A stretch of 64,000 nt of DNA. Origin: Persicirhabdus sediminis (GTDB taxonomy: Bacteria > Verrucomicrobiota > Verrucomicrobiia > Verrucomicrobiales > Akkermansiaceae). A model generated the notes under the pieces. The model was not told the origin of the DNA. It was given only the letters and a program-made list of their open reading frames with translations, and made no database searches. The DNA is taken from assembly GCF_016595495.1 (NCBI RefSeq), contig NZ_JAENIM010000009.1:62001-126000 (forward strand), read 5' to 3'. Position 1 is the first letter of the stretch, and every line of letters starts with the position of its first letter. Below, one piece after another: positions 1,447 to 42,137 of the stretch. The position numbers were made by a program, and so were the translations under genes.

Positions 1447-1471
1447 TTTAACCTCCAACTAACAAACTATC

Positions 1472-2047
1472 ATGAAACTGCTTATTGTAGATGACTCCGC
1501 GATGATTCGCAGAGCTATTGCCTCAGCCTACCAAGGGACAACATTCACGGACATTCAAACCGCATCTGACGGATTACTAGCTGTTACTATCTTCAAGACC
1601 TTCCTGCCTGACGTTGTCACGCTGGATATCACCATGCCTCACATGGATGGTTTAGCTGCGCTCACACAGATGCTTGAAATCAAACCAAATACTAATGTGT
1701 TGGTGATTTCAGCCCTAGCAGATCACCACACCGCCATTGAGTCCCTCTCCAGAGGTGCCAATCAGTTTATTTGTAAACCGTTCACACCTGAAGACCTCAA
1801 AGAGGCCCTAGACGACCTCACCTTGGGATCTCCAAATAAGCTGAATAACTCAACCAGCCGCCAAGAAGAACAAAGCATCAAGCTACAAACTTCTGCGATC
1901 CTAGAAAAAAAAATGCCAACGCCACCCGAGGGACTAACTGATAGCGCAACTCCAAAAGCCGACGATTACCCGTCTGGTTATGTTACTCCACCAAATGTGA
2001 AACCACAGGTTAGTCTCACAGAACACGAAAAATCAGTTAAACCCTAA
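1472..2047 (+). CDS. CheY-like response regulator with disordered tail
   Basis: A receiver domain fills residues 1-120: acidic pair D7/D8, phosphoacceptor D52 in LDITMPHMDG, conserved S80 and K102 followed by Pro. About 70 residues of Pro/Ser/Lys-rich, apparently disordered sequence follow, with no DNA-binding or enzymatic domain. It is therefore a single-domain signalling receiver with a tail. It lies 25 bases after the CheA-type kinase and 20 bases before the CheX gene, so kinase, receiver and phosphatase form one cassette. The output partner is not visible; the tail may bind it. Confidence 0.88.
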   Translation: MKLLIVDDSAMIRRAIASAYQGTTFTDIQTASDGLLAVTIFKTFLPDVVTLDITMPHMDGLAALTQMLEIKPNTNVLVISALADHHTAIESLSRGANQFICKPFTPEDLKEALDDLTLGSPNKLNNSTSRQEEQSIKLQTSAILEKKMPTPPEGLTDSATPKADDYPSGYVTPPNVKPQVSLTEHEKSVKP

Positions 2048-2067
2048 TACCCAAATATCAGTATAAT

Positions 2068-2601
2068 ATGAGCGAAAACGATAATAATGTTGGCAAGATC
2101 GATGAAGATATTGTCCGCTTTTTCATCTGGGCTGTGTGGAATTTTTTCCAAAAGCAGTCGCCGATAGAGCCAACGGTTGATCCACCTTACCTGTTTGATC
2201 GTTTCAAGCACGACGAGTATACAGGCATCATTGGGGTATCCGGCTCTCAGAAGGGCGCTGTTTACTTCACCATGGGGAAAGACATGCTAGATCATATTAT
2301 TAATACCAACTACGGTAAAAATATTGATCCTAACACGACCGAAGAGGATCGCGAACACCTACGTACCGACTTTGCTGGTGAAATGGCTAACACAGTTTCA
2401 GGTAACGTCAGAAACTATCTTGGGGAAGATTTCCTAATTAGTGTTCCTGTTGTAGTGAAAGCAGGCAAGACACCTCTCATCCTACCCAATAAAGTGACAG
2501 GTATTGTATTCCCAATCGAATGGGACGGTCACCGCAGCCACCTCGTCGTTGCCTTAGAAAACAGCCAACTGCCAGATAATGATGAGTTCATTATGAGCTA
2601 A
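2068..2601 (+). CDS. CheX-type phosphatase domain protein
   Basis: 177 residues matching the CheX branch of the CheC/CheX/FliY phosphatases. The family's catalytic ExxN signature is visible at E105-M-A-N108 in GEMANTVSGN. Family members remove phosphate from CheY-like receivers, and the gene directly follows a receiver gene, so it probably resets that protein. Only one ExxN motif is present, as in CheX; CheC has two. An extra ~30 residues precede the core. The start at 2068 gives a compact operon and has no Shine-Dalgarno. Confidence 0.82.
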   Translation: MSENDNNVGKIDEDIVRFFIWAVWNFFQKQSPIEPTVDPPYLFDRFKHDEYTGIIGVSGSQKGAVYFTMGKDMLDHIINTNYGKNIDPNTTEEDREHLRTDFAGEMANTVSGNVRNYLGEDFLISVPVVVKAGKTPLILPNKVTGIVFPIEWDGHRSHLVVALENSQLPDNDEFIMS

Positions 2602-2639
2602 ATAAGCATAAACCTCACCCCCAAACCTAAAATCAAACA

Positions 2640-3212
2640 ATGAATGACTCCGATCTACCAGTAATTTTCAAACGCTACCAAACAGCTGTAGACCTCGAGA
2701 ATGGAAATCATCAACTACCTCCCATCATTTGGAAGGTACTGAAGCTGTTGGCCCAACCAATGGACAGATTTTGTCTGTCCAAAAAGCTATCCACAAGTTC
2801 CTCGGAAACACTTGAATTGATCGAGTTTGCTCTGAAAAACGAACTGATCGAAGTCATCGAGGCCAATACAGTTAGCTACGAAGAATACCTGAGCACATAC
2901 TCACAGGCATCCCTGCCAGCTGCTGTGGATTACAATATCGAAGAACCATTTGTTATCTTGCCGTCAGAGAATACTCCTAACGCATCGAACAATCAACCAG
3001 CCGCTAAACAAAATGGCTCAGTGCAATGCGCATCTATCGCTAGTGCGGCTGGTCACGTTAGCCAAGACATCGACCTAGATTCAGGCAATGACCTGCCAAC
3101 AATCAAACAAGTCAGTCTTGCGGACCTACGTGATGATGACTCTGTGATCGTTAGCAATAATGACCATGACGCAGCCAAAGATCAGGCGGTCACATTAGAG
3201 ATCGCCACCTAG
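2640..3212 (+). CDS. Unknown protein, last gene of the kinase/receiver/CheX cluster
   Basis: 190 residues not recognised as a known family. Residues 1-85 look alpha-helical and could form a small winged-helix-like unit (PPIIWKVLKLLAQPMDRF, then SSSETLELIEFALKNELIEVI); this is a guess from the helix pattern. Residues 110-190 are rich in Asn, Asp, Ser and Ala and look disordered. It lies 38 bases after the CheX gene and just before a strong terminator, so it is probably transcribed with the phosphorelay and may be its output or scaffold. Confidence 0.7.
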   Translation: MNDSDLPVIFKRYQTAVDLENGNHQLPPIIWKVLKLLAQPMDRFCLSKKLSTSSSETLELIEFALKNELIEVIEANTVSYEEYLSTYSQASLPAAVDYNIEEPFVILPSENTPNASNNQPAAKQNGSVQCASIASAAGHVSQDIDLDSGNDLPTIKQVSLADLRDDDSVIVSNNDHDAAKDQAVTLEIAT

Positions 3213-3257
3213 CGGGTTTTCCTAATAATTGCGAGATGACTTGTCTCGCCTAAATAA

Positions 3258-3291
3258 AATTGGCTGCACAGAGTGATCTGTGCAGCCAATT
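3258..3291. terminator. Bidirectional intrinsic terminator
   Basis: A perfect 14-bp stem (AATTGGCTGCACAG and its complement) with a 6-base loop lies between convergent genes ending at 3212 and 3323. A weaker hairpin (GCGAGA...TCTCGC) lies just before it at 3231-3249. The A/T-rich flanks could serve both directions. Confidence 0.8.
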
Positions 3292-3322
3292 CGTTTAAAC
3301 TAATCGCTAAATTGCCTTTAGC

Positions 3323-3769
3323 TTAACGAAGCGCTAAGGCACCTTGAGTCTGAGCAATGCGAATATCGAGCTGGCTCACTGAATCTAATTTCTCAACTTC
3401 GAGAATAGCTGGATGGAAGCCAGCTAGAGAAAGGTCGGTATTATTTTCCAAGATTTCAGCCAGAGCATCCTGCTGCACTTCACCGTCAACAGTGATAGCC
3501 TCCAGTTGCTCAGGAGTCAGCTGGGCGGTTCGCCCCTTAGGCAAATAAATCGCCCCTGTGCTGAAATCCACAGCAAAAGCAACAACGCCTGGAATGAAAA
3601 AGAACAATAGTCCTACGGCGTCGAGAGCGACGACGGCAGGATCCAGCTGACCAGATTTCTGGCCTCGGCGTTCTGGGTGAATAATAGTACCGCAGGAAAC
3701 CGCTTGGAGTGCGACTGCAGCTGTGAGAATGGGGGCCAGATGACGGGTCAATCGGCTTTGGTTTAACAT
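3323..3769 (-). CDS. YceK-like small lipoprotein
   Basis: 148 residues. The N-terminus has a signal-like hydrophobic run ending in AVSCGT, with Cys26 as the probable lipidation site (not a perfect lipobox). The following block, with HPERRGQ, DPAVVALDAVGLLFFFIPGVVAFAVD and GAIYLP, is the conserved core of YceK/DUF1375-like lipoproteins found widely in marine proteobacteria. The C-terminal ~60 residues vary and look helical. Function is unknown; it is probably anchored to the cell envelope. It stands alone between the terminator at 3258-3291 and the antiporter gene. Confidence 0.7.
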   Translation of the reverse strand: MLNQSRLTRHLAPILTAAVALQAVSCGTIIHPERRGQKSGQLDPAVVALDAVGLLFFFIPGVVAFAVDFSTGAIYLPKGRTAQLTPEQLEAITVDGEVQQDALAEILENNTDLSLAGFHPAILEVEKLDSVSQLDIRIAQTQGALALR

Positions 3770-3846
3770 AACGTAGCCTATACACCAGAGCCCCCAGCTG
3801 ATGACAAGGCCTTATCAATCATTTAAAACCAACGATTTACACAAAC

Positions 3847-4815
3847 CTAACGTTGCACCACATATATGCAGTAAGCCAGATAGCCAGCTAACAAAAATGC
3901 CCCCTCCAGACGAGACAAATGGCGGCGTGTCACCATAAACGGTAAAATCAACACACTAACGCCGACCATCGTAGCCATATCCGCCCAGTTGATTTCGTGA
4001 GCCTTAATGGCACTGATAGAACCTGTGATGCCAACTACTGCCAATAAGTTGAAAATACATGAACCAATCGCGTTACCCGTGATCAGATCACCTTGGTTGC
4101 GAATGGATGCGACAACGGAAGTTGCCAGCTCAGGTAACGAAGTACCAAAAGCGATCATCGTGAGAGCAATCACAGAAGCTGGCACACCTAATACGATGGC
4201 AATCTTCTGGCCGTTTTCAACCAATAAGTTAGCGCCAAAAACCAGCGCAACGAGCCCCATGACAATGAAAATAACATTACGTTTAAGGCGCCCCTTTTCA
4301 CCAGCATGTTTTACAGCCTCAGCCAGCTCGTCAATATCCTCAGTATCCGAACTCTCAGGCTCGTGTCTAGCAAAGTAGATGCTAGCAACTACATAAATAA
4401 CAATCATGGCCGCTAGGATAAAACCTTCCCAACGCTGAAGCACACCATCCCACAGCATCGCCGCAAAAATCAAACTACTAACAATAAGGATAGGCATCTC
4501 ACGGCGGATGATTTGTAACTTAATCGTGATTGGTTTGATCAAGGCGCCCACGCCAAGTATCAGCGCAATGTTACAAATGTTGGAGCCAATCACATTGCCT
4601 AGTGCCATATCTGGCTGGCCAGCTCGGTTAGCATTTACGCTTACTAATAACTCAGGAGCACTAGTACCAAAGGCCACAACAGTAAGGCCTACTACCAGAG
4701 GTGAAATCCCTAACCTTAAGGCAATTTCTGAGCTACCGGCGACTAACCACTCAGCTCCGTAGTAAAGCAAGGCCAAGCCGACGATTAAAAGCAATACGCT
4801 AACGAACATTTCCAT
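3847..4815 (-). CDS. Calcium/sodium antiporter (CaCA family, YrbG-like)
   Basis: About 322 residues with ten predicted membrane helices in two related halves. Each half carries the alpha-repeat signature: VAFGTSAPELLVSV near residue 55 and IAFGTSLPELATSVVA near residue 225, whose Glu residues bind Ca2+ in this family. A charged cytoplasmic loop (about residues 150-180) joins the halves. Inner-membrane exchange of Ca2+ for Na+ (or K+) is the family role. An upstream in-frame ATG at 4836 exists, but the start at 4815 puts the first helix near the N-terminus as in homologues. Confidence 0.88.
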   Translation of the reverse strand: MEMFVSVLLLIVGLALLYYGAEWLVAGSSEIALRLGISPLVVGLTVVAFGTSAPELLVSVNANRAGQPDMALGNVIGSNICNIALILGVGALIKPITIKLQIIRREMPILIVSSLIFAAMLWDGVLQRWEGFILAAMIVIYVVASIYFARHEPESSDTEDIDELAEAVKHAGEKGRLKRNVIFIVMGLVALVFGANLLVENGQKIAIVLGVPASVIALTMIAFGTSLPELATSVVASIRNQGDLITGNAIGSCIFNLLAVVGITGSISAIKAHEINWADMATMVGVSVLILPFMVTRRHLSRLEGAFLLAGYLAYCIYVVQR

Positions 4816-5189
4816 AACGCAAACTGCACTTGGCAAGCCGGAAAAGTAAAGCGAGATCTCGGCGATTCTGGCCCATTTGGACCAGTCAGATCCTTGCTAT
4901 CTTTGTGCAAATCTTATGTGTGCATATTTTGCGGATTTTCTAATTCAATTCCTTTACTCTTGTTCCTCCCAGCAACACCAACTAAAACGCCACACAAGCC
5001 TAAACCCTGAAGGATAGACAGTTACACCAACAACCCATTGATAGAGTCAAATTTAAACCGATGCAATTACGCATATTTTGCTCTAAAATCGCGCAAAATG
5101 CGCACGACTCACAGTAAGAAATGCACAGCACGAAATTGACATTTAATCTATAAATTTTTAGACAAATCCAGCAACCCGCTGCTCACCCT
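4816..5189. promoter_or_regulatory. Divergent promoter region upstream of the cbb3 oxidase locus
   Basis: 374 bases without a gene, between the antiporter (leftward) and the ccoS-like gene (rightward). The 11-mer GCATATTTTGC occurs twice (4922-4932 and 5071-5081), and a palindrome GCGCA-AAA-TGCGC lies at 5091-5103. Such repeats fit a regulator site, but none matches a known consensus. A TTGACA hexamer at 5136-5141 lacks a well-spaced -10. No clean FNR box (TTGAT-N4-ATCAA) was found. Confidence 0.4.
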
Positions 5190-5357
5190 ATGCTCGTCCT
5201 CGCCCTAACTATTTTAATCAGCACTCTGCTTGCAGGCATATTTGTCGCCTGCTTTTTCATGGAGTGGAAAAACGTGCGCGAGAGAAGTATCGAGCAAGAT
5301 TCCTTGCTCCCCTTGGACGACGACACCCCACCAGCATCACCCATTTCTAGAAAATAA
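5190..5357 (+). CDS. ccoS: CcoS-like cbb3 oxidase assembly protein (small ORF)
   Basis: 55 residues. The N-terminal half is one membrane helix (about residues 3-23); then come a short basic stretch and an acidic segment with three Asp in a row (PLDDDTPP). This layout, a helix followed by a short tail ending in a DDD-like cluster, is that of CcoS/FixS, which is needed for cofactor insertion into cbb3 oxidase. It ends 3 bases before the CcoNO start, so it is translated from the same message. It usually lies next to ccoI downstream; here it leads the operon. No CcoI copper ATPase is in the window. The assignment rests on layout and position, not on a long motif. Confidence 0.68.
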   Translation: MLVLALTILISTLLAGIFVACFFMEWKNVRERSIEQDSLLPLDDDTPPASPISRK

Positions 5358-5360
5358 ACT

Positions 5361-7823
5361 ATGAAGACACAAACCGGTAATACCGTAACCATTGAGTACG
5401 ACGATTCCATCGTGCGGCTATTCCTACTCGCTTCTCTAATCACCTCTGTGGTGGCTATGTTAGTAGGCGTGATTATTTCATCTCAGCTGCATACCTGGCA
5501 GATGAATGGATTGGGCACAGCTGGACTAGAATGGATCACTTTTGGTCGCTTGCGCCCACTTCACACAAATGCTGCCATCTTTGCCTTTGTTGGTAATATG
5601 ATGTTTGCTGGTGTGTATTATTCCACCCAGCGCTTGTGCAAAGCCCGTATGGCTAACGATGTGCTTTCGCGGATTAACTTCTGGGGCTGGCAGACCGTCA
5701 TTCTCGGTGCCATTATCACACTCCCTCTCGGTCTAACTCGTGGCAAAGAATACGCTGAGCTGATTTGGCCTATCAACATCCTCGTGGTTTTGGTTTGGGT
5801 TGTATTTGCCGTCAACTTCTTCTGGACACTTCATAAACGAAATGAACCGCACCTCTATGTGGCGCTGTGGTTCTACATCGCTACCATTATTACCGTGGCG
5901 ATGCTTTACATCGTTAACCACCTATCACTCCCTACCAGCCTAACTCACTCCTACCCAATCTTTGGCGGGGTACAAGATGCGCTAGTTCAATGGTGGTATG
6001 GTCACAACGCCGTGGCCTTCTTCCTAACGACGCCGATCCTCGGCATCATGTACTATTTCATGCCTAAGGCAGCTGGACGTCCAGTCTACTCCTACCGTCT
6101 TTCTATCATCCACTTCTGGGCGCTAGTATTTATCTACATCTGGGCAGGTCCTCACCACCTTCTCAACACAGCTCTGCCACAGTGGTTGCAGATGCTCGGC
6201 ATGCTTTTCTCACTCATGCTTTGGGCTCCATCATGGGGCGGCATGCTCAACGGCCTGCTCACTCTGCGCGGTGCCTGGGACAAACTACGTACCGACCCGG
6301 TCATTAAGTTCTTTGCCGCAGGTGTTACCTTCTACGGCATGGCGACATTCGAAGGCCCGCTGATGGCTATCAGAAGCGTTAACGAAATCTCACACTATAC
6401 TGACTGGACAATTGGACACGTTCACTCAGGTACACTCGGCTGGAACGGATTCATGGCTGCCGGCATGTTCTACTGGATGGCTCCGCGCCTCTGGGGCAAA
6501 AAAGACGGCTCTCCTAGCAAACTGTGGAGCACAGCCATGGCCAATACTCACTTCTGGCTCGGCACCGTAGGCATCCTACTTTACATCGGCTCAATGTGGG
6601 CATCTGGTATTCTCCAGGCTCTCATGCTCAGCGCGACTAACGAAGCTGGCACACAGCTGAAATACACTGATTTCCTCGAAACCGTGCAGTCCATTCTACC
6701 AATGCTGTGGTTCCGTACAGCTGGCGGCCTGCTCTACCTAACTGGATTCATTCTCTGCGCCATCAACATCTTCATGACCATCAAAAATGGTAAAGCTGTG
6801 AATGGCACCAAAGAAGTGGTGCTTCCTGAAGCTGACGAGATGGATACTAAAGCTGGCTGGAAAGCTGTCTTCCGTAACGACCCAGTTACTTATTCATTCT
6901 GGGTGATCGTATTCCTAACTCTATGGATCTTCTTACCATCCTACGCTGACGTAGCCGCTCTCGCGATCGCACTTGGCCTCGCAGCTCAGGCATGCTGGTT
7001 ATTTAAAAAGCGTCACCAAGAGTGGAGCAACCTCTACGAAACTCTGGAGAAAAACTGGGTTCCATTCACCCTGCTCGTTGTTGTTGCAGCTGGTCTTGGA
7101 GGGGCGATTCAGATCATCCCAACAGTGCTTGCTAACAAAGGCGCTACCGTAGAAGAGCGTGTGCAGAAACTATACACACCTCTGGAGCTAGCTGGTCGTG
7201 ATATCTACATCACGGAAGGTTGTTATAACTGTCACTCACAAATGATTCGTACGCTGGAGACAGACGTGCGCCGCTACGGTGACTGGAGCCGCATTGGTGA
7301 ATCTATCTACAACCACCCATTCCAGTGGGGATCTAAGCGTACTGGTCCAGATCTCGCTCGTGAAGGTGGCCTACGTCCTGACAAATGGCACTACGATCAC
7401 ATGTTAGATCCACGTGCAATTTCCGAAGGATCTATCATGCCAGCATACCCATGGTTGCTTAAAAAGGAGACTGACATCGACGCACTTCCTAGCAAAATCG
7501 GTGCTCTAAGAGACTTAGGTGTTCCATACCCAGCTCTTAACAAACACGAAATCCTTGATAGCGCTCAGCACCAAGCACTGAAGATCGCTAAAGGTCTCGT
7601 AGCAAGCAACATCACCCTTCCTGAGGACCTAGACGAGTCATTCACAGCTGGATCTATCAGCGAGAACGAACTCGTTCAAAAACTCGCCCAGCGTGAAATC
7701 ATTGCGCTGATCGCTTACTTGCAGAAAATCGGTGCGCACATCGACCTCGAAGTCGACGAATCAGCTGCTCCGAAATTGCTTAACCCTGACACCAAGCAGC
7801 AACCACGTGTAGCTAACCAATAG
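5361..7823 (+). CDS. ccoNO: cbb3-type cytochrome c oxidase, fused CcoN-CcoO subunits
   Basis: 820 residues carrying both catalytic subunit I and the cytochrome c subunit. Residues 1-480 are CcoN, with many membrane helices and the heme/CuB ligands in WWYGHNAV, AGPHHLLNT and IGHVHSGTLGW. After extra helices (about 500-595) comes CcoO, with heme-binding C621-x-x-C624-H625 in CYNCHSQM and the axial Met near 693 in GSIMPAYPW. It reduces O2 to water with electrons from cytochrome c and pumps protons in the inner membrane. N and O are separate genes in proteobacteria; fusion is known from Bacteroidota. The junction is continuous in frame with no stop, so the fusion is real. Confidence 0.95.
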   Translation: MKTQTGNTVTIEYDDSIVRLFLLASLITSVVAMLVGVIISSQLHTWQMNGLGTAGLEWITFGRLRPLHTNAAIFAFVGNMMFAGVYYSTQRLCKARMANDVLSRINFWGWQTVILGAIITLPLGLTRGKEYAELIWPINILVVLVWVVFAVNFFWTLHKRNEPHLYVALWFYIATIITVAMLYIVNHLSLPTSLTHSYPIFGGVQDALVQWWYGHNAVAFFLTTPILGIMYYFMPKAAGRPVYSYRLSIIHFWALVFIYIWAGPHHLLNTALPQWLQMLGMLFSLMLWAPSWGGMLNGLLTLRGAWDKLRTDPVIKFFAAGVTFYGMATFEGPLMAIRSVNEISHYTDWTIGHVHSGTLGWNGFMAAGMFYWMAPRLWGKKDGSPSKLWSTAMANTHFWLGTVGILLYIGSMWASGILQALMLSATNEAGTQLKYTDFLETVQSILPMLWFRTAGGLLYLTGFILCAINIFMTIKNGKAVNGTKEVVLPEADEMDTKAGWKAVFRNDPVTYSFWVIVFLTLWIFLPSYADVAALAIALGLAAQACWLFKKRHQEWSNLYETLEKNWVPFTLLVVVAAGLGGAIQIIPTVLANKGATVEERVQKLYTPLELAGRDIYITEGCYNCHSQMIRTLETDVRRYGDWSRIGESIYNHPFQWGSKRTGPDLAREGGLRPDKWHYDHMLDPRAISEGSIMPAYPWLLKKETDIDALPSKIGALRDLGVPYPALNKHEILDSAQHQALKIAKGLVASNITLPEDLDESFTAGSISENELVQKLAQREIIALIAYLQKIGAHIDLEVDESAAPKLLNPDTKQQPRVANQ

Positions 7824-7837
7824 AACCAACAACGACT

Positions 7838-8020
7838 ATGTTCAAAAGAATCATCATCGAAGATTGGAATCAGATCGGAGGACTCATCTCCTTCATCCTG
7901 ACATTTGGCATCTTTGCCAGCATCATGCTGCGCGCTTGGAGAATGAAACCTAGCGAAGCCGAGCACATGGCCTCACTCGCCCTAGAAGAAGACCTCAAAC
8001 AAAAAGAATCTAACCAGTAG
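7838..8020 (+). CDS. ccoQ: CcoQ-like small subunit of cbb3 oxidase
   Basis: 60 residues with one membrane helix (about residues 13-33, LISFILTFGIFASIMLRAW) and an acidic C-terminal tail. Size, topology and position between the catalytic subunits and CcoP match CcoQ, a single-helix subunit that stabilises the complex. It starts 14 bases after CcoNO and ends 4 bases before CcoP. Confidence 0.8.
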   Translation: MFKRIIIEDWNQIGGLISFILTFGIFASIMLRAWRMKPSEAEHMASLALEEDLKQKESNQ

Positions 8021-8024
8021 ACCC

Positions 8025-8600
8025 ATGACTGATCCACGTACAAACAAAGACATCAATAAAGGTCCAGTTCTGCGCGAGCATACATTCGACGGCATTGAAG
8101 AGTACGACCAGAAATTACCTAACTGGTGGTTATTCACCTTCTACATCGCCATCGTTCTCTACATCGTCTACTGGCTGCTGATGTACAGCACAGGGCTCAT
8201 CAAACCTGATTCTCAGGTCATTGATGAGCACATGGCTAAAATTGAGCAGGTGCAAAAAGCCGAACTCGAAGCCATGTTAGCTAACCTTGATGACCAAACA
8301 CTCATCACCTGGAGCCAAAATGGCGGCATCCTAGCTGAAGGCGAAGAGATCTACAAAGCTAACTGCCTCGCCTGCCACGGAGCAGGCTTGGAAGGTGGCA
8401 TCGGTCGCCCACTCAATGCTGACAAACTCCACTACGGTAATAAACCTATGGAGCTTTTCAACATCGTGCTCAACGGTTCACCGGCTGACGCAGTTGGCTA
8501 TAATGGCCAAAAAATGCAGGCATGGAAGCAGCTTGGCCCAGACAAGGTCGCCAAGGTCGTTGCTTTCGTAGCTAGCAAAAACGACAATATCAAAGAGTAA
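8025..8600 (+). CDS. ccoP: CcoP cytochrome c subunit with a single heme site
   Basis: 191 residues. The CcoP N-terminal region is present (HTFDGIEEYDQKLPNWW, then a helix at about 36-56). One cytochrome c domain follows with C114-x-x-C117-H118 in NCLACHG and a probable axial Met in YNGQKMQAW. CcoP of proteobacteria has two CXXCH motifs and about 290 residues; here one domain is missing and no second motif exists. It passes electrons from soluble cytochrome c to CcoO. A strong hairpin follows at 8614-8645. Confidence 0.92.
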   Translation: MTDPRTNKDINKGPVLREHTFDGIEEYDQKLPNWWLFTFYIAIVLYIVYWLLMYSTGLIKPDSQVIDEHMAKIEQVQKAELEAMLANLDDQTLITWSQNGGILAEGEEIYKANCLACHGAGLEGGIGRPLNADKLHYGNKPMELFNIVLNGSPADAVGYNGQKMQAWKQLGPDKVAKVVAFVASKNDNIKE

Positions 8601-8613
8601 ATTACTCTCTATC

Positions 8614-8645
8614 AAGCTGGGCTGAACGCTCCCTCAGCCCAGCTT
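8614..8645 (+). terminator. Hairpin between ccoP and ccoG
   Basis: A perfect 12-bp stem (AAGCTGGGCTGA and its complement) with an 8-base loop. No T run follows, so it may be a weak terminator or a 3'-end stabiliser that lowers expression of the assembly genes relative to the structural genes. Confidence 0.55.
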
Positions 8646-8713
8646 ATCTCCCCCGCCCCTATCACCCTAGCTTAGCCTAGCAGCTAAGTTAATTTCTCCA
8701 AAACAGACACATC

Positions 8714-10150
8714 ATGTCCACGGGCAGCAAAAAACCTAACCTGGCCTCCGTCACCACGGTCAACAAAGACGGATCTCACTATCGGCTCCACCCAGCTGAT
8801 GTCAAAGGGCGCTTCACACTCGCCCGCAGGCTCGTTGCCGCACTTTGCCTCATTGTATACGTAGCCCTGCCATGGATCAAAATTAACGGCTATCCAGCTG
8901 TCTTTTTAGATACCGCCATGCGCCGCTTCCACATCTTTGGCGTCACCCTCGCCATTCAGGATATGTGGGTTCTCTTTTTTGTCATTACGGGTTTAGGCTT
9001 CACGCTGTTCTTCATCACCTCTCTAATGGGCCGCATCTGGTGTGGCTGGACATGCCCATACACCGTATTTCTTGAGCACGTGTATCGCCGCATTGAGCGC
9101 TGGATAGACGGTGATGCCACCGCGCGCAGAAAACTCGACGCAGAACCGTGGTCGGGCACAAAGATCGCCAAAAGAATTCTCAAACACGGGCTTTTTCTAA
9201 TCATTAGCTGTCTCATTGCTCATGTGTTAGTTTCGTACTTCATGTCATTAGAGGGTTTGTACGCAGCCATTCAAACAGGCCCAGGCGACCATATCTTCTC
9301 ATTTGGCGTCATTATCTTTTTCACCGTCGTTTTGTACGGCTGCTTCGCCTTTTTCCGCGAACAATTTTGCATCATGATGTGCCCATACGGTCGTCTACAA
9401 TCTGCGCTCAGTGATGATGACACCATGATCATTGGTTACGACTTCCAGCGCGGTGACCCTCCCGGCAAACCTAAAGATCCTGATGCAGGTGATTGTATTG
9501 ATTGTCGCCGTTGTGTGCAGGTTTGCCCAACTGGCATCGACATCAGAAATGGCCTCCAGCTAGAGTGCATCGGCTGCGCTAACTGTATTGATGCCTGTGA
9601 TGACATCATGAAAAAACTGCAGCGCCCAACAGGACTGGTCCGCTATGACTCATACAACGGTCTGCATGGTAAAAGGAATCGCATTCTGCGCCCACGGCTA
9701 TTCATGTATTTTGCCCTCATGCTAGTTGGCCTATCAGTGCTCACCTTCACCGTTTCGAAAAAAGCTAGACCATTTACAGCACAGATCACCAAGATGAAAG
9801 GCATCGCCTATCAGCAGGATGATACTGGCATCCGCAACGTGCTGAGAATCTACCTATTTAATAAGCGAGCAGTGGATGCTAGCTATAGCTTTAGAGTAGA
9901 AAATGCTCCTGAATGGCTCAAAGTAAGCGGCTCGACCGACGACTTAAAACTAAAGCCACTTGGTGAAACAACCTACACACTCGTCGTCATTGCACCTGAA
10001 GAAAACTACGATGGCCCATTTGATTTCACTCTAATCGTCGAAGATCAGGGAGGCGCGACCGTTCAGCAACAGGTTAACTTCCTGGGACCTAACCCAAGAC
10101 TCTATCGCAAGCGATTAGATGAAGCCAAAGCAACAGGGACCAACAACTAA
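8714..10150 (+). CDS. ccoG: CcoG: cbb3 oxidase accessory ferredoxin-like membrane protein
   Basis: 478 residues of the FixG/CcoG family. Several membrane helices in the first half surround the motif WCGWTCPY. Two [4Fe-4S] Cys sets follow in CIDCRRCVQVCP (about residue 260) and CIGCANCIDACD (about 285). The C-terminal ~130 residues form the periplasmic Ig-like FixG domain. CcoG is reported to reduce Cu(II) to Cu(I) for delivery to cbb3 oxidase. It follows the structural genes in the same direction. Confidence 0.93.
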   Translation: MSTGSKKPNLASVTTVNKDGSHYRLHPADVKGRFTLARRLVAALCLIVYVALPWIKINGYPAVFLDTAMRRFHIFGVTLAIQDMWVLFFVITGLGFTLFFITSLMGRIWCGWTCPYTVFLEHVYRRIERWIDGDATARRKLDAEPWSGTKIAKRILKHGLFLIISCLIAHVLVSYFMSLEGLYAAIQTGPGDHIFSFGVIIFFTVVLYGCFAFFREQFCIMMCPYGRLQSALSDDDTMIIGYDFQRGDPPGKPKDPDAGDCIDCRRCVQVCPTGIDIRNGLQLECIGCANCIDACDDIMKKLQRPTGLVRYDSYNGLHGKRNRILRPRLFMYFALMLVGLSVLTFTVSKKARPFTAQITKMKGIAYQQDDTGIRNVLRIYLFNKRAVDASYSFRVENAPEWLKVSGSTDDLKLKPLGETTYTLVVIAPEENYDGPFDFTLIVEDQGGATVQQQVNFLGPNPRLYRKRLDEAKATGTNN

Positions 10151-10169
10151 TCCCTAATTTACCATCTCA

Positions 10170-10343
10170 ATGATAGAACTTCCTAAAAAATACGCCTGGA
10201 TGCTGATCATCCTACTATTTGCACTCAGTCTCTCAGCTTGGATAATCTTTTACAAGGTAGCCGATAAGCTCGAGGTGAAACGCATCGATACTGATTTACC
10301 AACTGAAGAACAAGTAGACGTAGCTGACAGGCCCAACAACTAA
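10170..10343 (+). CDS. Small membrane protein in the CcoH position
   Basis: 57 residues: a short basic N-terminus, one membrane helix (about residues 9-29, MLIILLFALSLSAWIIFY), then an acidic tail. It starts 19 bases after ccoG and ends 11 bases before the SafE-like gene, exactly where ccoH/fixH sits elsewhere. CcoH proteins are usually about 140-160 residues with a periplasmic domain, so this would be a reduced form or an unrelated small subunit. The reading frame is clean and membrane-like, so it is probably a real gene. Confidence 0.6.
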   Translation: MIELPKKYAWMLIILLFALSLSAWIIFYKVADKLEVKRIDTDLPTEEQVDVADRPNN

Positions 10344-10354
10344 CCTAATCAAAC

Positions 10355-11155
10355 ATGCTAGAAACCGTCAACACTCCAGCTATCGCCTTTTTATTTGGCT
10401 TAGTAACTAGCCTACACTGCGTTGGTATGTGTGGGCCAATCGCCTGCTCGCTTAGCACACTCAAAGGCGGTGAAACTCAGCAAATGACTTCAGCTGTTTG
10501 TTACCATGGCGGTCGTCTATTGTCCTACTCCCTCATTGGGGCAACCTTTGGCGCCATAGGCATGAAACCTCTACAGTGGTTTTTCAACTCTCCCGCTGTC
10601 TTACTGCCATGGGCTCTGGTGATCATGTTCTTTCTCATCGCTCTCGGGCTGGAGAAAAAAATTCCTCGACCAGCATTCTTCAATCGCTTTGTTGCTAGAG
10701 CTAGATTTAAAGCTGCAAAAACCAGCGTCACCCGCGGATCACTAGCTATGGGCCTATTTACCCCGTTGTTGCCATGCGGCCCGCTGTACATGCTATTTGG
10801 CTTTTCCTTACTAACTGGCTCAGCCATTCGCGGTGCAGAATTCGCTCTAGCATTTGGCCTCGGAACTGTCCCTCTGCTCTGGTTAGCGCAGCACGCATTC
10901 CACAAGATTCAGGCGCAGGTAAAAGCCGCCACCATGCCGCTCATTCGTCGCGGGCTAGCACTTGTGACTGCCATTCTTATGTCTATGCGCCTGGCTGACA
11001 CACTTCCGTGGAACCAAGCTCAGGCTGAAAATGCACCTAGCAGCCAGCTAGAAAATGCCTTACCGCCAGCTGAAAATGATCAGTCTAATGGCGAAAATTC
11101 TGCGGCTGAAAAAGCTGAAGAAGTTAAACAAGCACTACCATCTTGCTGCCACTAA
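10355..11155 (+). CDS. SafE/TauE-like membrane protein linked to cbb3 oxidase maturation
   Basis: 266 residues with about six membrane helices. The motifs HCVGMCGP (about residue 22) and LLPCGPLYML (about 145) are typical of the COG2836 branch of sulfite-exporter-like proteins, usually found beside ccoGHIS. Their paired Cys residues suggest metal, probably copper, handling rather than sulfite export. The last residues are SCCH, another possible metal site. The stop codon overlaps by 4 bases that of the opposite-strand RDD gene. Confidence 0.8.
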   Translation: MLETVNTPAIAFLFGLVTSLHCVGMCGPIACSLSTLKGGETQQMTSAVCYHGGRLLSYSLIGATFGAIGMKPLQWFFNSPAVLLPWALVIMFFLIALGLEKKIPRPAFFNRFVARARFKAAKTSVTRGSLAMGLFTPLLPCGPLYMLFGFSLLTGSAIRGAEFALAFGLGTVPLLWLAQHAFHKIQAQVKAATMPLIRRGLALVTAILMSMRLADTLPWNQAQAENAPSSQLENALPPAENDQSNGENSAAEKAEEVKQALPSCCH

Positions 11156-11718
11156 CTATTTTTCTTTTTCCATCTCGCCAAGGCGCGATCATAGCTGCGG
11201 GTATCCAACCATTTTGGTTTCCCCTGCACCACATAAGATCCAGTCAATCTATCGTGGATCGTACGACGTCGCGCTGAATACATAGACAGCCCATCTATAA
11301 GCACCAGCACGGGAATAGCTGGGAATAAACACATTCTCAGGAATTCACGCAAAATAGACTTTCTGCGAGACAAGAGCTCACCACTTCGCTGGACGATGCG
11401 AATATTCATCGCCCGCTTTCCAATAGAAATGCCCGAATCAACAAGCATAAACCAGTTGAAAACGAGGTAACAAATAAATGCGGCTATAACAAATAATGCG
11501 TGATCAAGCCATTCTTGCTGAGTAGATAAATTGACATCATTTGCCTCAGCTAACATGAGAACAAGATGAGCAGGTAGAGACGCTACCAGCACATCTATAA
11601 AGTAAGCTGCACCACGCTCGAGTATCCCAGCCTTGAGATCGATGATTCCAACTGGCCCCTGTTTCCTATCGGCGTCTTCACGGACCGGTGTTTGATATGG
11701 GTTCACTTCCTCACTCAC
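11152..11718 (-). CDS. RDD family membrane protein
   Basis: 188 residues. The N-terminus (NPYQTP followed by charged residues) is a soluble lead often seen in such proteins. The RDD signature follows: LERGAAYFIDVLVASL in helix 1, then DSGISIGKRAMNIRIVQ and RRRTIHDRLTGSYVV after later helices. Three to four membrane segments are predicted. Function is unsettled; some RDD proteins act as Na+/H+ antiporters. It converges on the cbb3 locus and appears monocistronic. Confidence 0.85.
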   Translation of the reverse strand: MSEEVNPYQTPVREDADRKQGPVGIIDLKAGILERGAAYFIDVLVASLPAHLVLMLAEANDVNLSTQQEWLDHALFVIAAFICYLVFNWFMLVDSGISIGKRAMNIRIVQRSGELLSRRKSILREFLRMCLFPAIPVLVLIDGLSMYSARRRTIHDRLTGSYVVQGKPKWLDTRSYDRALARWKKKNS

Positions 11719-11762
11719 GTACTAACATTAACACTAACGAAGGTAAGATGCGAAAACAAAAA

Positions 11763-11789
11763 AATGCGCCGTGAAACCCACGGCGCATT
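11763..11789 (-). terminator. Intrinsic terminator of the RND efflux operon
   Basis: A perfect 11-bp stem (AATGCGCCGTG and its complement) with a 5-base loop. On the minus strand it is followed by a T run (the A tract at 11757-11764), 23 bases after the RND gene's stop. Confidence 0.85.
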
Positions 11790-11811
11790 AAGAATTAATT
11801 AAGCTGGCTGA

Positions 11812-14800
11812 TTATTCTGCAGCTTTACGTTCATTAATGTGGCCGCCTTTGAGCTTATCAATCAAAGCCTGAAGGATGTAGTAGAGCATTGGTACCACAA
11901 TCAAACTTAGTGCGGTAGCTGCACACATGCCGCCAAATACCACGGTGCCAAGAACCTTACGTGATTCTGACCCGGCGCCAGTAGCTACCAGCAACGGTAA
12001 CACACCCAAGATAAACGAGAACGCAGTCATCAATACCGCACGGAAACGCAACTTGAGCGCATCCAAAGCTGCGTCAAATGGGCTCGCTCCAGCTTCGTAT
12101 TTTTCTTTAGCGAACTCGACGATCAAAATCGCACTCTTCGTTGCTAGACCGATCAACAAAACAACACCAACCTGAGTATACACGTTGTTATCCATGCCAC
12201 GCGCAATCACTGCTAGAACCGCCCCCAAGAGAGCTGTAGGCACTGACATACAAACTGAAACAGGAACTGACCAGCTCTCGTACTGAGCAGCTAGAATCAG
12301 ATAGACGAGAACAATAGCCAACATGAAGATCACCGTCGTTGAGCCCGATGCCTGCTTTTCCTGATAGGACAAGTCGGTCCAAGCCAATGAGGCAAAGTTA
12401 GGTAACTTTTCAGCCGCCATATTTTCCACAATGGCCATCGCTTGACCTGAGCTGAAGCCCGGTGCTGCACCGCCGCGGACCGTAACCGATGGATACATGT
12501 TGAAGCGGGTGATCTGCTGTGGACCATAACTATTCTCTACGGAAGCAACCGCTCCCAGAGGAACCATTTTGCCGTCATCAGCACGAATCTCCAAGTGGTT
12601 AATATCCACTGGCTGGGCACGTGCATCGGATCTAGCCTGAGCCTTCACCTTAAAGTTACGGTTCATGTACACGAAGTCGTTAATGTATGCTGAACCTAGG
12701 AAATTCTGCATCGCTTCAAAAACTGACGCTAGCGACAGTCCACGAGTTAGAACTTGGTCACGGTCAATGTCCACGTAGAGCTGAGGCACATTGGCCCGGA
12801 AGGTACTATTCACACCAGCTAGGCCAGTCTGAGTATTTCCTTCTTCAACAAAACCGTCCGCGACTTGAGCAAGAGACCCAATGCCTGCACCGCCGGTATC
12901 TTGAACCATCGCAGTAAAACCACCAGTTAGACCGACACCTGGAAGTGAAGGAACAGGGAAGCTCATACACAAACCTTCTTGCAGCTGAGCGAACTGAGCA
13001 TTCATTTTCTGGATCAATACATTCTGATGCTGCTCGGGAGGTCTCTCAGACCAGTCTTTGAATACTGCAATTGCGAAACCTGAGTTAGAAGCAGCTACGC
13101 CATCTAGCAATGAATAACCAGTAACAGATAGGTAGTTATCTACCCCCTCAGTACCAGCGATAATATCATTTACCTGACCGATGAAATCCACCGTTCTCTC
13201 CTGAGAAGAACCATCTGGCAGCTGAATGTTGATCATGCAATAACCTTCATCCTCTTGCGGCACAAAACCTGATGGCAATCCAGAGAAGCCGTATAGAGCT
13301 AGCGCAGTCATGCCAACAAACAAGAGAAGACCAAGTGCTGCCTTGCGCATCACGGCTCTGGTTAGCCCAGAGTATACGTTGATGGTCTTATCCAAACCTG
13401 AGTTGAAGAGCTTAAATGGCTTCGCCAACTTATCTTCATCAACGCGTTTGAGCAACATTCCGCAGAGAGCGGGACTGAGAGTCAGAGCATTGATAGAACT
13501 GAAAATCGTTGCCACGGAAATGGTAATCGCAAACTGTTGGAAAAGCGTGCCTGTGATACCTGGCATGAAAGCAACTGGTACGAATACTGATAACAACACC
13601 AGAGTCGTGGCAATAACAGGTCCAGTGATTTCGTTCATCGCCCGCTTAGTCGCTTCCTTGGAAGAGATCGTTTTATCCTGCTGAAGGTGACGAGTAACGT
13701 TCTCGACAACCACAATGGCGTCATCAACTACAATACCAATAACCAGCACCAAACCAAACAAGGTGAACTGGTTGATAGTGAAGCCAATCGCAGCCATCAC
13801 AGCGAAGGTACCAATCAAAGAAACTGGAATCGATGCAGAAGGCACCAGTGTTGCGCGGAAGTTCTGTAGGAAAACAAAAACCGTAATAACAACAAGGATC
13901 AGCGTCGCAAACAAGGTGACAACCACCTCATTCATAGATGCTTTAATAATGTCGGTATTATCGTAAGCAATTTTGTAATCGACACCTTGAGGAAAGCGCT
14001 TTTTCAGCTCCTCTAACTTAGCACTTACCCCTTCAGAAACCTCAATAGCATTTGCCCCAGGAATCTGATAGACAGCCATGGTGGCTGATTCTTGCCCCAT
14101 GAAAGTAGAAGTAAATCCATAGTTTTCAGATCCCAACTCCACATCGGCAACATCTCTAACGCGCACGACGCGACCATCGTCACCAGTCTTAACAACAATA
14201 TCACCGAACTCTTGGGCGTTCACTAGACGACCTTTCAAGTTAACGGTGTATTCGTACATCTGACCAGCTCTGGCGGGAGGCTCACCAATTTTACCACCAG
14301 CTACCTGAACACTCTGGTTAGATACGGCATTGATAACATCAGCCGAAGTTAGGCGACGAGCGTGCAAACGATCTGGATCTAACCACAAGCGCATACTGTA
14401 GTCACCAGTACCGTAGGTATTAACCTTACCGACACCGTTAACTCGAGCAATCTCATCCTTGAGATTCAGCTTCATGTAGTTAGACAAGAATAGACCGTCT
14501 TTACTTTGATCTGGTGAAAACAGAGCAATGAACAAGTTAGTATCCTGACTCTGTTTGTCAGTCTTCACGCCCATTCGTTGGACTTCCTGAGGCAAGTTAG
14601 ACATCGCCGCAGAAACACGGTTCTGCGTCATCACGTTAGCCATATCCAGATCGGTGCCCGGCGCGAAGGTAATGGTGATATTTAGCGAACCATCATTACC
14701 ACAAACACTACGCATATAGAGCATGTGCTCTACACCGTTGATTTGCTCCTCTAGCGGGCCAGCAACTGTATCAGATACAGTCTGGGCATCAGCACCAGGA

Positions 14801-19171: not shown

Positions 19172-20218
19172 CTAGCTAACATTGCCGCTAGATTCTTTAG
19201 CTTTAAGCTCTCCCCTAACTAACTGAGTGCCGACAACGGAAGTATCCCCCTGCATTTGCTCTATCAATAGCTCAGCAGCTCTTGCCCCTAACTGCTCAAG
19301 TGGCTGGACAACAGAGGTCAAAGCTGGCGTCACTTCTCCAGCCATGTAGGAACCATCCACACCAGCCACACTAATATCTTTTCCTGGCACCAAGCCCAGC
19401 TCCTTAATCATGTCCATGGCGCCGAGGGCGCTGAGATCATTCGCCGCAATCAAAGCTGTCGGCCTATCATCTAACGACAGAATTTGTTTCGCCGCCAATC
19501 GCCCGATAGAGTAATGAAACCCACCGTTAGCGATATACTCTGGTGGCAGCTCCAGCCCATGTTTTTTGATTGCGTCTATAAATGCGCGCCCACGAGTCAC
19601 CGCGTCACTGACCTGCTCTGGGCCAGCAATATAAGCAATTTTCTGATGTCCTAGTGAGACCATATGATCAACCAGGCATTCTATCGCATGCACGTTATCC
19701 ATATCCGCCCAGCTGATAGATGAATGACTTGGCTGAGCGCCCACCACCACCATAGGAGCCTCTTCGAATGTCTGATTCACAATCAACTCATCTTGCTCAA
19801 GGGGAGCTAAAATCATCACCCCATCGACACGCCGCTGGGCGACTAAAGACATTAAATTTTCACCATTTTGGTATTCCCGCGATGAGGTATCTAAGGGAAT
19901 CAATCGCAGATCTTCCTTAGCTAGCCGGTTTTGCGCCCCACGATAGATACCGGCAAAATACTCACTGCCCAACAATCCATCAAAGCGCACACCAAAACCA
20001 ATCAGCTGAGTTTTACCACGAGAGAAATTTCCAGCCAGCGCATTGTAAACATAACCAAGGCGGTCAGCTTCTTCGATGACACGCTCGCGTGTTTCTTTAC
20101 GAACGGATCCAGTTCCTGAAAAAACACGCGAAATTGTCATCTTGGACAAGCCAGTCGCTGCCGCAATGTCCTCCATCGTTGCGCCTTCTGTTCCTCGCTT
20201 TCGTTTTATTTTTTCCAT
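19172..20218 (-). CDS. LacI-family transcriptional regulator
   Basis: 348 residues. Residues 15-60 are the LacI helix-turn-helix and hinge (MEDIAAATGLSKMTISRVFSG, then ERVIEEADRLGYVYNALA). Residues 70-345 are a periplasmic-binding-protein-like sensor domain with the usual AAND, AGVDG and TSVVQP segments. It is transcribed away from a sulfatase-like gene 477 bases off and probably controls it in response to a sugar; the ligand is unknown. Ten residues of basic sequence precede the usual start of the domain. Confidence 0.93.
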   Translation of the reverse strand: MEKIKRKRGTEGATMEDIAAATGLSKMTISRVFSGTGSVRKETRERVIEEADRLGYVYNALAGNFSRGKTQLIGFGVRFDGLLGSEYFAGIYRGAQNRLAKEDLRLIPLDTSSREYQNGENLMSLVAQRRVDGVMILAPLEQDELIVNQTFEEAPMVVVGAQPSHSSISWADMDNVHAIECLVDHMVSLGHQKIAYIAGPEQVSDAVTRGRAFIDAIKKHGLELPPEYIANGGFHYSIGRLAAKQILSLDDRPTALIAANDLSALGAMDMIKELGLVPGKDISVAGVDGSYMAGEVTPALTSVVQPLEQLGARAAELLIEQMQGDTSVVGTQLVRGELKAKESSGNVS

Positions 20219-20695
20219 GGTTTTAGGGTTACTGGGAATTAGAGAAAATCCTCATCTGCGCAACTGGCCATTTTAGCGGGGTCACGAAGATTCGTTTTTC
20301 TTGATTCTGCTTACTAAAAACCAGAAATGTGCTCGGTAACAAGCATAAACGAATTGCGCCTAATGAAATGCCAATTTGAACAGAGCACAATCGCGCTCAG
20401 TGAGGCCAATGACAAATAAGCTCAGAGAAAAAATGGAAGTAAATAATCGCTAAGGCCGACAATACCAGCCCACTAAACAACACTAGCTGAGAACCTTATG
20501 GCATAAGGAAAATTGAGACGCCAATTTTTACCAAACCATCACAATTGTGAAATTTTACGGCTTTTCCCCACCTCATGAGACATCAAATTGGTGCAGAAAA
20601 CCAATTTTAAACTGTAGTTTCAAACTAAATAGATTAAGTTAATCTAATGCCACAATTTCTGCAGCTGCCCGAAAATCCAAGCCATTAAAAAAATC
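20219..20695. promoter_or_regulatory. Divergent control region between LacI gene and sulfatase-like gene
   Basis: 477 bases without a gene. Visible symmetry: an inverted repeat AAATTGG-N9-CCAATTT at 20585-20607 and, right after it, the palindrome AAACTGTAGTTT at 20609-20620. Both lie 75-110 bases before the sulfatase-like start, where an operator could sit. Neither has the central CG of a classic LacI-family operator, so the assignment is tentative. Confidence 0.35.
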
Positions 20696-22081
20696 ATGAA
20701 CATTATGCGCCTTATTTTAGTACTGACATGCCTACTTCCATTAGCAGGCCTGGCTAAACGCCAACCACCCAACATTATTCTTATCTGCGCAGATGATCTA
20801 GGTTACGGAGATGTCAGTTACCACCACGGTCACGCTGAAGACATCATTACACCAAATATCGAGCGCTTAGCCCGCAATGGCGTATGGTTCTCACAAGCCT
20901 ACAGTGCCTCCACACTTGGCGCCCCAGCCCGCTCCGGCATGATGACCGGACGCTATCCCCAGCGCTATGGATACGAAGACAATCCTGGGCCATTTCGACA
21001 GTCTGAAGACGTCACCATCGGCACACCTGATAGCGAAACCACTCTAGCTGAAAAATTTGGCGAACTCGGCTACACCACAGCACTGATAGGTAAATACGAA
21101 GATAGCTACAACCAGCTGAAGCACCCAAATCGACGTGGCTACGACTACTTTTACGGCTTCACCGGATCTATCATCGACTACTACGTCAAAGCGCGTTCAA
21201 AAAGGCAGATCTACAGAAATAACAAACTCGTGATCGAACAACGCTATCTCACAGACGTTTTTGGAGAAGAAGCTGAGAAGTTCATCATTGAAAATAAAGA
21301 CGATCCTTTTTTCCTCCACCTTTCCTTTAATGCTGTCTCAGGACCTATCGTAGCGCCACCTGAGGTGGTGGAAAAGTTCGCACACATTCAAGGCGAGCGC
21401 AGACGCAAATTTGTCACCATGCTCTACATCATGGATAAAAATATTGGCAACCTATTGAATACCTTGAACAAGCATGGGCTGAAGGAAAATACCATGGTGA
21501 TCCTGACTAGCGACACAGGCAGCAAACCTAGAGCAACTCATGCGAGCAACGGCAATCTCAATGGCGAGCGCGGCACTTTTTTCGAAGGCGGCATCCGCGT
21601 CCCCTTAATCATCTCGTGGCCAAGCAAATTGCCAAAAGACTTTGAGCACACACAAATGGTCAGCACCTTGGATATCTACCCAACCATCTTTAGCGCCTGC
21701 AAAGCGAGAAAACCATGGTCGGAAAATGAGCTCGATGGCAAAGACATCTACAGCCAGATCAGCGGCATGGAAGACGCCAGCTCTCACGAGTATTTATACT
21801 GGAGAGCCAATGCCAAGTGGGCAGTCAGGGACAATCATTGGAAGTTAGTCTTCGCCGATAATAAATCTCCCGTTGCTTTGTATAAAATTATTAATGACGA
21901 GAGAGAGCAGAAAAACGTCATCAATGATTATCCAGCTGAGGTGGAGCGCCTCAACAATGCCTTTGTTAACTGGTCAAAGACATTGAAAGCACCACAATGG
22001 GGGTGGCAGCCACAGTACTGCGGGGAAACTAAAATGGATTTTAAAAACCCAAACCCGCAAGCACTGAGCATCGCTGATTAA
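20696..22081 (+). CDS. Sulfatase-fold protein lacking catalytic residues (probable pseudoenzyme)
   Basis: 461 residues with a signal peptide (first 20) and an unmistakable sulfatase scaffold: NIILICADDLGYGDV, PARSGMMTGRYPQR, EGGIRVPLIISWP. The residue that must be Cys or Ser for conversion to formylglycine is Gly75 (context TLGAPARS; codon GGC at 20918-20920). Other usual active-site positions also differ: GKWH is GKYE (residues 132-135), SDNG is SDTG (272-275), the APHxP His is replaced (NAVSGP, 212-217), and the Lys before the EGG motif is Arg292. D33, D34, K133 and D273 remain. The frame is intact, so this looks like a maintained protein without sulfatase chemistry, perhaps binding sulfated glycans. 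It is divergent from a LacI regulator. Confidence 0.85.
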   Translation: MNIMRLILVLTCLLPLAGLAKRQPPNIILICADDLGYGDVSYHHGHAEDIITPNIERLARNGVWFSQAYSASTLGAPARSGMMTGRYPQRYGYEDNPGPFRQSEDVTIGTPDSETTLAEKFGELGYTTALIGKYEDSYNQLKHPNRRGYDYFYGFTGSIIDYYVKARSKRQIYRNNKLVIEQRYLTDVFGEEAEKFIIENKDDPFFLHLSFNAVSGPIVAPPEVVEKFAHIQGERRRKFVTMLYIMDKNIGNLLNTLNKHGLKENTMVILTSDTGSKPRATHASNGNLNGERGTFFEGGIRVPLIISWPSKLPKDFEHTQMVSTLDIYPTIFSACKARKPWSENELDGKDIYSQISGMEDASSHEYLYWRANAKWAVRDNHWKLVFADNKSPVALYKIINDEREQKNVINDYPAEVERLNNAFVNWSKTLKAPQWGWQPQYCGETKMDFKNPNPQALSIAD

Positions 22082-40637: not shown

Positions 40638-42137
40638 ATGAAGCTTTTCAGTCCAAAGATCATTTTACCACTGGCTATCACAGCCATCAGCTCAGCGGCA
40701 CTTGCCCAAAGACCTAATATTGTGCTCATCTTCGCTGATGACATGGGGCACGGTGATATCAGTTGCCAAAACCCAAACGGCAAAATTCCAACACCTAACC
40801 TCGACAAACTAGCGAGCCAAGGCATGCGCTTCACCGATGGCCACAGTTCATCAGGTATCTGTACTCCTAGCCGCTTCGCTCTTCTAACTGGCCAGCACCA
40901 TTGGCGTAAATTCCACGGTATCGTTGGATCATTTGGCGAATCTGTTTTTGAACCCGATGATTTCACCATCGCTAAAATGCTCAGTGAGAGCGGCTATAAT
41001 ACCGCCGCCATTGGTAAGTGGCACCTCGGCTGGAACTGGAAGAGCCTAGAGACTGGCAAAAATGATGCCCCTGAAGGAGCCAAGAATGCCCAAGGACCAG
41101 CAGCTTACGACTGGAGCAAACCTATCCCAATGGGTCCGCTAGACCAAGGCTTCGACTATTACTTTGGTGACGGCACTATCAACTTCCCACCGTATTGTTG
41201 GATCGAAAACGATAAAGTGGTTGAGCCTCCAACAGTGATGATGGACACAGATACCTTCAAACCAATCCCTGAAGGTCGTTGGGAATTCCGCCCAGGACCA
41301 ATGCTCGACGGTTGGGATCCATATAAAGTCCTTCCAACACTAACTGATAAAGCAGTCGAGTGGATCGGCAAACAAACTGCCGAAAAACCATTCTTCCTCT
41401 ACTTTGCACTACCGTCACCACACGCGCCAATCATCCCTAACGATGAATACGTCGGCAAGTCACAGGCTGGCCCTTACGGTGATTTTGTTTATGAATCTGA
41501 CGCCATGGCTGGACGTATCATCAAAGCCATCGAAGACAAAGGCTTTGCTGATAATACCATCGTTATCTTCTCTGCCGACAATGGCCCCGAAGGTTACGCA
41601 TACGACCGCCTTAAAAAGACTAACCACAATAGTTCAGGTGAACTGCGTGGCCTCAAACGTGATCTCTATGAAGGTGGCCACCGCGTGCCATTCATCATCA
41701 GTTGGCCAGGAAAAACGAAAGCTGGTAGTGTGAGCAACCAAACAATCAGTCAGGTTGACCTCGCAGCAACATTTGCAGCCGCCGCTGGCACCACGATACC
41801 TAACGATAAAGCAATCGACTCACACGATCTGACTCCACTGCTTGCTGGTGAAGACAAACCAATTCGCAAGTCTACAGTACAAAATACCAAACCTAAAGCA
41901 TTTGCTCTACGATCAGGTGACTGGCTTTATATGAATACCAATTCAGGTTTCACACGTCGTCCCGATGCGACAAAAAACGGTGAAGACTACAAAACCAAAG
42001 GGCTGTTATTTAACCTTAAAGACGACCTCGGTCAGCAAAACAACCTGTTCGATAGCGAGCCTGAGCGCGTTGAAAGAATGGACAAAGAGCTCAACGAATA
42101 CATCGACGGAAAGCGCACTGCGCCAACTCGTCCATAA
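40638..42137 (+). CDS. Secreted sulfatase with intact active site
   Basis: 499 residues from the ATG at 40638, chosen because it starts a signal peptide ([24 protein letters not shown]); the frame opens 39 bases earlier. The sulfatase signature is complete: C75 in [12 protein letters not shown] is converted to formylglycine by a maturase. [33 protein letters not shown] and [23 protein letters not shown] supply the other ligands. It hydrolyses a sulfate ester, probably of a marine polysaccharide, in the periplasm. No maturase (FGE or anSME) is in the window. It is a useful contrast with the altered protein at 20696. Confidence 0.95.

Follow-up and report, generated by a model that had tools for sequence, protein, structure and literature searches.

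The window (the whole stretch of DNA analysed, 64,000 nucleotides from Persicirhabdus sediminis) contains the gene of a sulfatase-fold protein, here called the pseudosulfatase, together with a divergent regulator gene and two palindromes. Coordinates are those of the window.

19172–20218, minus strand: LacI-family regulator, divergent neighbour; nearest relative found 45% identical (genome G174).
20539–20550, no strand: 12-bp palindrome TCACAATTGTGA, weaker operator candidate; an equally long one is present in 11% of shuffles.
20630–20646, no strand: perfect palindrome TAGATTAAGTTAATCTA of 17 bp, roughly 50 bp ahead of the start codon and a candidate operator for LacI; compared with shuffles.
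20696–22081, plus strand: S1_19-like pseudosulfatase, 461 aa, predicted to be secreted; from the frame, Pfam, PDB sequence and fold matches, and the AlphaFold model.
20696–20755, plus strand: predicted Sec signal peptide MNIMRLILVLTCLLPLAGLA; read from the sequence, with residues 1–20 of low pLDDT.

The frame is open over 461 amino acids without internal stop, with normal codon usage and a normal GC content at the three codon positions. The Pfam Sulfatase profile (PF00884) matches residues 25–334 with 188.9 bits (curated cut-off 25), which places the protein in the sulfatase fold. An AlphaFold model, for which plasmid-derived rows were left out of the alignment, has a mean pLDDT of 91.1 and a pTM of 0.90. 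The intact fold and 461-codon frame described in an earlier note on this DNA, made from the letters alone, are thus borne out; the signal peptide it named agrees with a hydrophobic, signal-like N-terminus, also read from the sequence, and is a prediction.

The nearest solved structures by sequence are the S1_19 carrageenan sulfatases PsS1_19B, ZgCgsA and Ps i-CgsB (280 to 224 bits). PsS1_19B, an exo-G4S kappa-carrageenan sulfatase of S1 subfamily 19 (PDB 6prm; 6psm for the C77S complex), has its whole-length fold in common with the pseudosulfatase (phmmer 280 bits, TM 0.86), and its C77S form with bound kappa-neocarrabiose is the best PDB fold match of the model. These top matches by sequence and by fold place the protein in S1_19 by descent.

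Gene surroundings and the LacI neighbour

Palindromes with arms of at least 8 bp and a spacer of 0–1 are present in 1.5% of shuffles (the test applied to the 17-bp palindrome), and the 17-bp palindrome is present as a single copy within the window. Regulation of the pseudosulfatase by its LacI neighbour may be supposed from this arrangement. The neighbour reported in the earlier note is indeed there, in divergent orientation; its being kept found no parallel, as the same LacI beside the same sulfatase was seen in no other genome examined.

The related LacI of genome G174 (same family) is also divergent from a sulfatase, which is of another type and Cys-bearing. At this locus (L206; G174 C1:252000-266000, positions 4784–11005) the LacI is of the same type as that of the window, the sulfatase is unrelated to the pseudosulfatase, and a GH1 gene flanks the pair on the opposite side from a transporter-like gene that comes after the sulfatase; this last gene resembles the MFS_2-type sugar transporters found at loci of active relatives of the pseudosulfatase. 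The locus suggests a LacI class controlling single sulfatases.

Downstream of the pseudosulfatase lies a conserved housekeeping block (FAD protein, thioesterase, R3H), common to many family relatives. Of 29 relatives inspected, none has a sulfatase next to the FAD gene within 1.5 kb, hence there is no positional orthologue; since the block of these relatives has no adjoining sulfatase, the LacI–pseudosulfatase pair seems to have been inserted or relocated in this lineage specifically. No polysaccharide-degradation genes neighbour the pseudosulfatase.

Substitutions in the active site

Five of the ten catalytic residues are changed (C75G, H135E, H215S, N274T, K292R), among them the Cys that is indispensable for catalysis.

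20918–20920, plus strand: codon 75 GGC (Gly), formylglycine position of CxPxR; column 100% Cys in 60 homologues.
21098–21100, plus strand: codon 135 GAA (Glu), replacing an invariant His; codon reading and 60-homologue alignment.
21338–21340, plus strand: codon 215 TCA (Ser), replacing the catalytic-acid His; alignment, equivalent to H233 of PsS1_19B (PMC6923384).
21515–21517, plus strand: codon 274 ACA (Thr), replacing the metal-ligand Asn; codon reading and 60-homologue alignment.
21569–21571, plus strand: codon 292 CGC (Arg), replacing the sulfate-binding Lys; codon reading and 60-homologue alignment.

All of these had been described in the earlier note, and each was read from its codon: Gly75 (GGC) in CxPxR, GKYE for GKWH (residues 132–135, codon 134 being TAC and codon 135 GAA), SDTG for SDNG (Thr, ACA), Ser (TCA) where the His of APHxP is absent, and Arg (CGC) for the Lys ahead of EGG. 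The intact sulfatase it offered for comparison (40638–42137) has Cys75 as stated, within SGICTPSR.

In the alignment of 60 homologues the Cys75, His135, His215 and Lys292 columns are 100% conserved and Asn274 is conserved at 97%. This count leaves out a plasmid member (L108) with Ser at the Cys position; Ser there is usable by anaerobic maturation enzymes. Asp33, Asp34, Arg79, Lys133 and Asp273, whose roles we take from established sulfatase structures, are kept in the pseudosulfatase.

S1 formylglycine sulfatases are defined by Cys or Ser in [CS]xPxR (PMC5066984), and Gly75 lies outside this definition, as do the five of ten changes among the conserved metal- and sulfate-binding residues. As read from its sequence, the protein is unable to form formylglycine; because formylglycine, two pocket His (one of them the catalytic acid), a metal-ligand Asn and the sulfate-binding Lys are all missing, it is not a formylglycine sulfatase, and it is almost certainly catalytically dead as a sulfatase. 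With its catalytic residues lost and its (predicted) fold kept, the protein answers to the definition of a pseudoenzyme.

The probability is negligible that the DNA was misread or misassembled, or that the protein is a sulfatase whose active site has shifted and escaped recognition; nothing in favour of either was found. An error would have to account for multi-base changes at five separate sites (at least 11 substitutions) in an open, undamaged frame, with ordinary genes on both sides as the contig continues, and sequencing error was rejected on these grounds; the ungapped alignment across CxPxR speaks against a shifted site.

A repurposed enzyme is improbable. It would use Asp33, Asp34, Asp273 and perhaps Glu135, with Arg79 and Lys133, and a metal-bound water would replace formylglycine in a different hydrolysis. 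Each of the five active-site residues kept is either a metal ligand or a charge deep in the pocket, Glu135 could serve as a new ligand or base, and the alkaline-phosphatase superfamily, in which the nucleophile has been switched more than once, offers a precedent. However, Gly is unable to act as a nucleophile, the general acid is missing, and the new residue set was found in no homologue, so that there is no conserved new signature.

Variation at GKWH was also seen in the clade of active relatives: in L106, L073, L103 and L194–L198 the Trp, conserved in other members, varies (V, E, S, Q) and the His is kept (GKxH). This is possibly a change of pocket specificity that preceded the losses in the pseudosulfatase.

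Distribution, descent and constraint

The genome (4.17 Mb) has 73 Pfam sulfatase genes: 71 with the Cys motif, the pseudosulfatase, and one (L187) without the motif that looks like a distant membrane-anchored branch, not an S1 sulfatase. The pseudosulfatase is the only one of the 72 S1-type proteins without Cys. One clear copy of an anaerobic sulfatase-maturating enzyme (475 bits) is present; therefore the other sulfatases of the genome can be activated. About 20 of the paralogues are S1_19-like, at no more than 40% identity to the pseudosulfatase.

The homologue searches covered the genus, the family (260 genomes), the order (387) and the phylum (388) and, elsewhere in the phylum, a class (338) and a further order (43), sets that overlap, as well as GTDB contigs, plasmids and viral contigs. 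Among all of these no Gly form and no homologue above 43% identity was found, a distance at which dN/dS is saturated. The part of the open-access literature covered contained no account of a natural bacterial pseudosulfatase. PF00884 proteins with Thr instead of Cys or Ser are discussed in SulfAtlas (PMC5066984); like the pseudosulfatase they are Pfam sulfatase members without the formylglycine motif, but they form established branches, whereas the pseudosulfatase is a single loss inside a Cys-type subfamily.

In a tree of 60 proteins the pseudosulfatase falls inside Cys-bearing clades, without a firm exact sister, so the loss of Cys is derived. No other end branch among the 60 is as long (1.36; median 0.35), which is compatible with relaxed constraint. 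The best reading of these data is a lone, probably fast-evolving case in one genome.

Slow decay, with function gone, little constraint and a stop codon not yet met, would agree with this longest branch, with presence in a single genome and with a position that does not adjoin a degradation operon. It is nonetheless unlikely. The path from ancestral to present catalytic codons requires at least 11 nucleotide changes in the five codons (1, 2, 3, 2 and 3, in order), and the frame is still open; with simulated unconstrained drift of 0.1 changes per site, 0.7% of runs kept an open frame, and with 0.3 none of 600 did, so that drift of such size almost always yields stops. Non-catalytic columns conserved in the clade are retained at the rate of active members (15 of 96 lost, or 16%, as against 15% in L106, the most divergent active relative), compared with 5 of 10 lost among catalytic residues (one-sided Fisher p = 0.02; p = 0.01 with a broader column set). 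Together with the normal codon usage and the model, this evidence, though indirect, speaks for a folded protein under selection and against gene decay, and the pseudosulfatase is very probably maintained by selection.

The selected pseudoenzyme proposed in the earlier note is upheld as regards fold, frame, codon usage and at least 11 changes without a stop; conservation of the dead form across orthologues, for its part, was not observed, as no second genome with the Gly form was found. The same note had held that orthologues with Cys would speak for recent inactivation or error. All close homologues found do have Cys, yet none exceeds 43% identity and the searches gave no true orthologue; neither a recent inactivation nor an error is shown by them.

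Sugar-facing loops and possible function

Two segments characteristic of a subfamily are retained; residues were matched to PsS1_19B with the numbering offset taken from C77.

20978–21001, plus strand: loop DNPGPFRQ (residues 95–102); F100 aligns with F103 of the aromatic shelf of PsS1_19B (alignment).
21992–22024, plus strand: segment PQWGWQPQYCG (residues 433–443); Y441 aligns with shelf Y455 of PsS1_19B (alignment).

The loops DNPGPFRQ and PQWGWQP are rare elsewhere in the subfamily, and both are common to the pseudosulfatase and four relatives (L194, L195, L196, L106) at no more than 43% identity. Unlike the pseudosulfatase, these relatives all have Cys and all ten catalytic residues. They were found in other genomes within the phylum and on a Persicobacter plasmid; one of the source genomes has 712 sulfatase candidates and may resemble the sulfatase-rich Kiritimatiellales of PMC6388578. 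Their loci with readable surroundings contain LacI, MFS_2 sugar transporter, glycoside phosphorylase or GH2 genes. At one compact sugar locus (L205; G846 C27:1-18000, positions 183–12443) LacI, two tandem NPGPFRQ-type sulfatases and GH2 are present, with a glycoside phosphorylase and a transporter on the other strand; it may be a clue to the substrate of the active subfamily. Co-transfer of LacI with this subfamily was rejected, the LacI of L205 being only 26% identical to that of the window.

In PsS1_19B three aromatic residues (Phe103, Tyr455 and Tyr458) form a shelf that grips the terminal sugar, and crystals of the C77S mutant contain the intact sugar in bound form (PMC6923384); an S1_19 protein without a nucleophile thus still binds sugar. 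The positions of Phe103 and Tyr455 are kept in the pseudosulfatase. C77S is an engineered nucleophile-free sugar binder; the pseudosulfatase is a natural protein with Gly for Cys, and differs further from PsS1_19B by Glu and Ser in place of two His, Thr in place of Asn and Arg in place of Lys. Core-conserved columns are kept in 14 of 14 cases in the two shelf loops and in 90 of 115 elsewhere (p = 0.04, with loops chosen post hoc, a weak statistic).

In the sulfate pocket two His are gone, the Lys is present only as Arg, and Glu135 is gained. Glu135 in this damaged pocket makes the former mode of sulfate-ester binding less likely, which weakens the sulfated-glycan binding put forward in the earlier note; the sensor partner put forward with it has neither a membrane anchor nor a signalling neighbour. 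Binding of a sugar end, perhaps desulfated, fits better, as the kept parts are the sugar-facing loops. Sequence and the analogy with PsS1_19B give sugar-end binding as the retained function a little less than an even chance.

A non-catalytic partner is a further, rather remote reading, in which the protein would form a dimer with an active S1_19 paralogue (e.g., of the tandem pair L002/L003 in the same genome) and tune it. PsS1_19B is dimeric in solution (PMC6923384) and the genome supplies the S1_19-like paralogues noted above, but the gene is unlinked to any active one.

The mechanism proposed here starts from an active S1_19-type exo-sulfatase, from which a secreted pseudoenzyme would have derived. 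The protein would be kept for ligand binding, most likely of the non-reducing end of an oligosaccharide via the shelf loops, and would serve in the periplasm or extracellularly for lectin-like capture or protection; the divergent LacI repressor may control its expression. That a secreted pseudoenzyme from such an exo-sulfatase was kept as a sugar-end binder is, in our estimate, evenly balanced between true and false. A bolder version, a sulfatase turned lectin or metal-water hydrolase, with a site rebuilt under selection on the Asp metal site and the new Glu, and acting as a LacI-switched secreted sugar-end receptor, is doubtful.

The pseudosulfatase would be a single dead member in a large sulfatase set; its reading as a pseudoenzyme is well supported and its specific function is a guess. 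Sulfatase counts serve to infer which sulfated sugars can be eaten, and a dead member with a good predicted fold implies that counting by Pfam matches alone gives too many. If binding were demonstrated, the protein would illustrate the natural conversion of a sulfatase to a sugar receptor.
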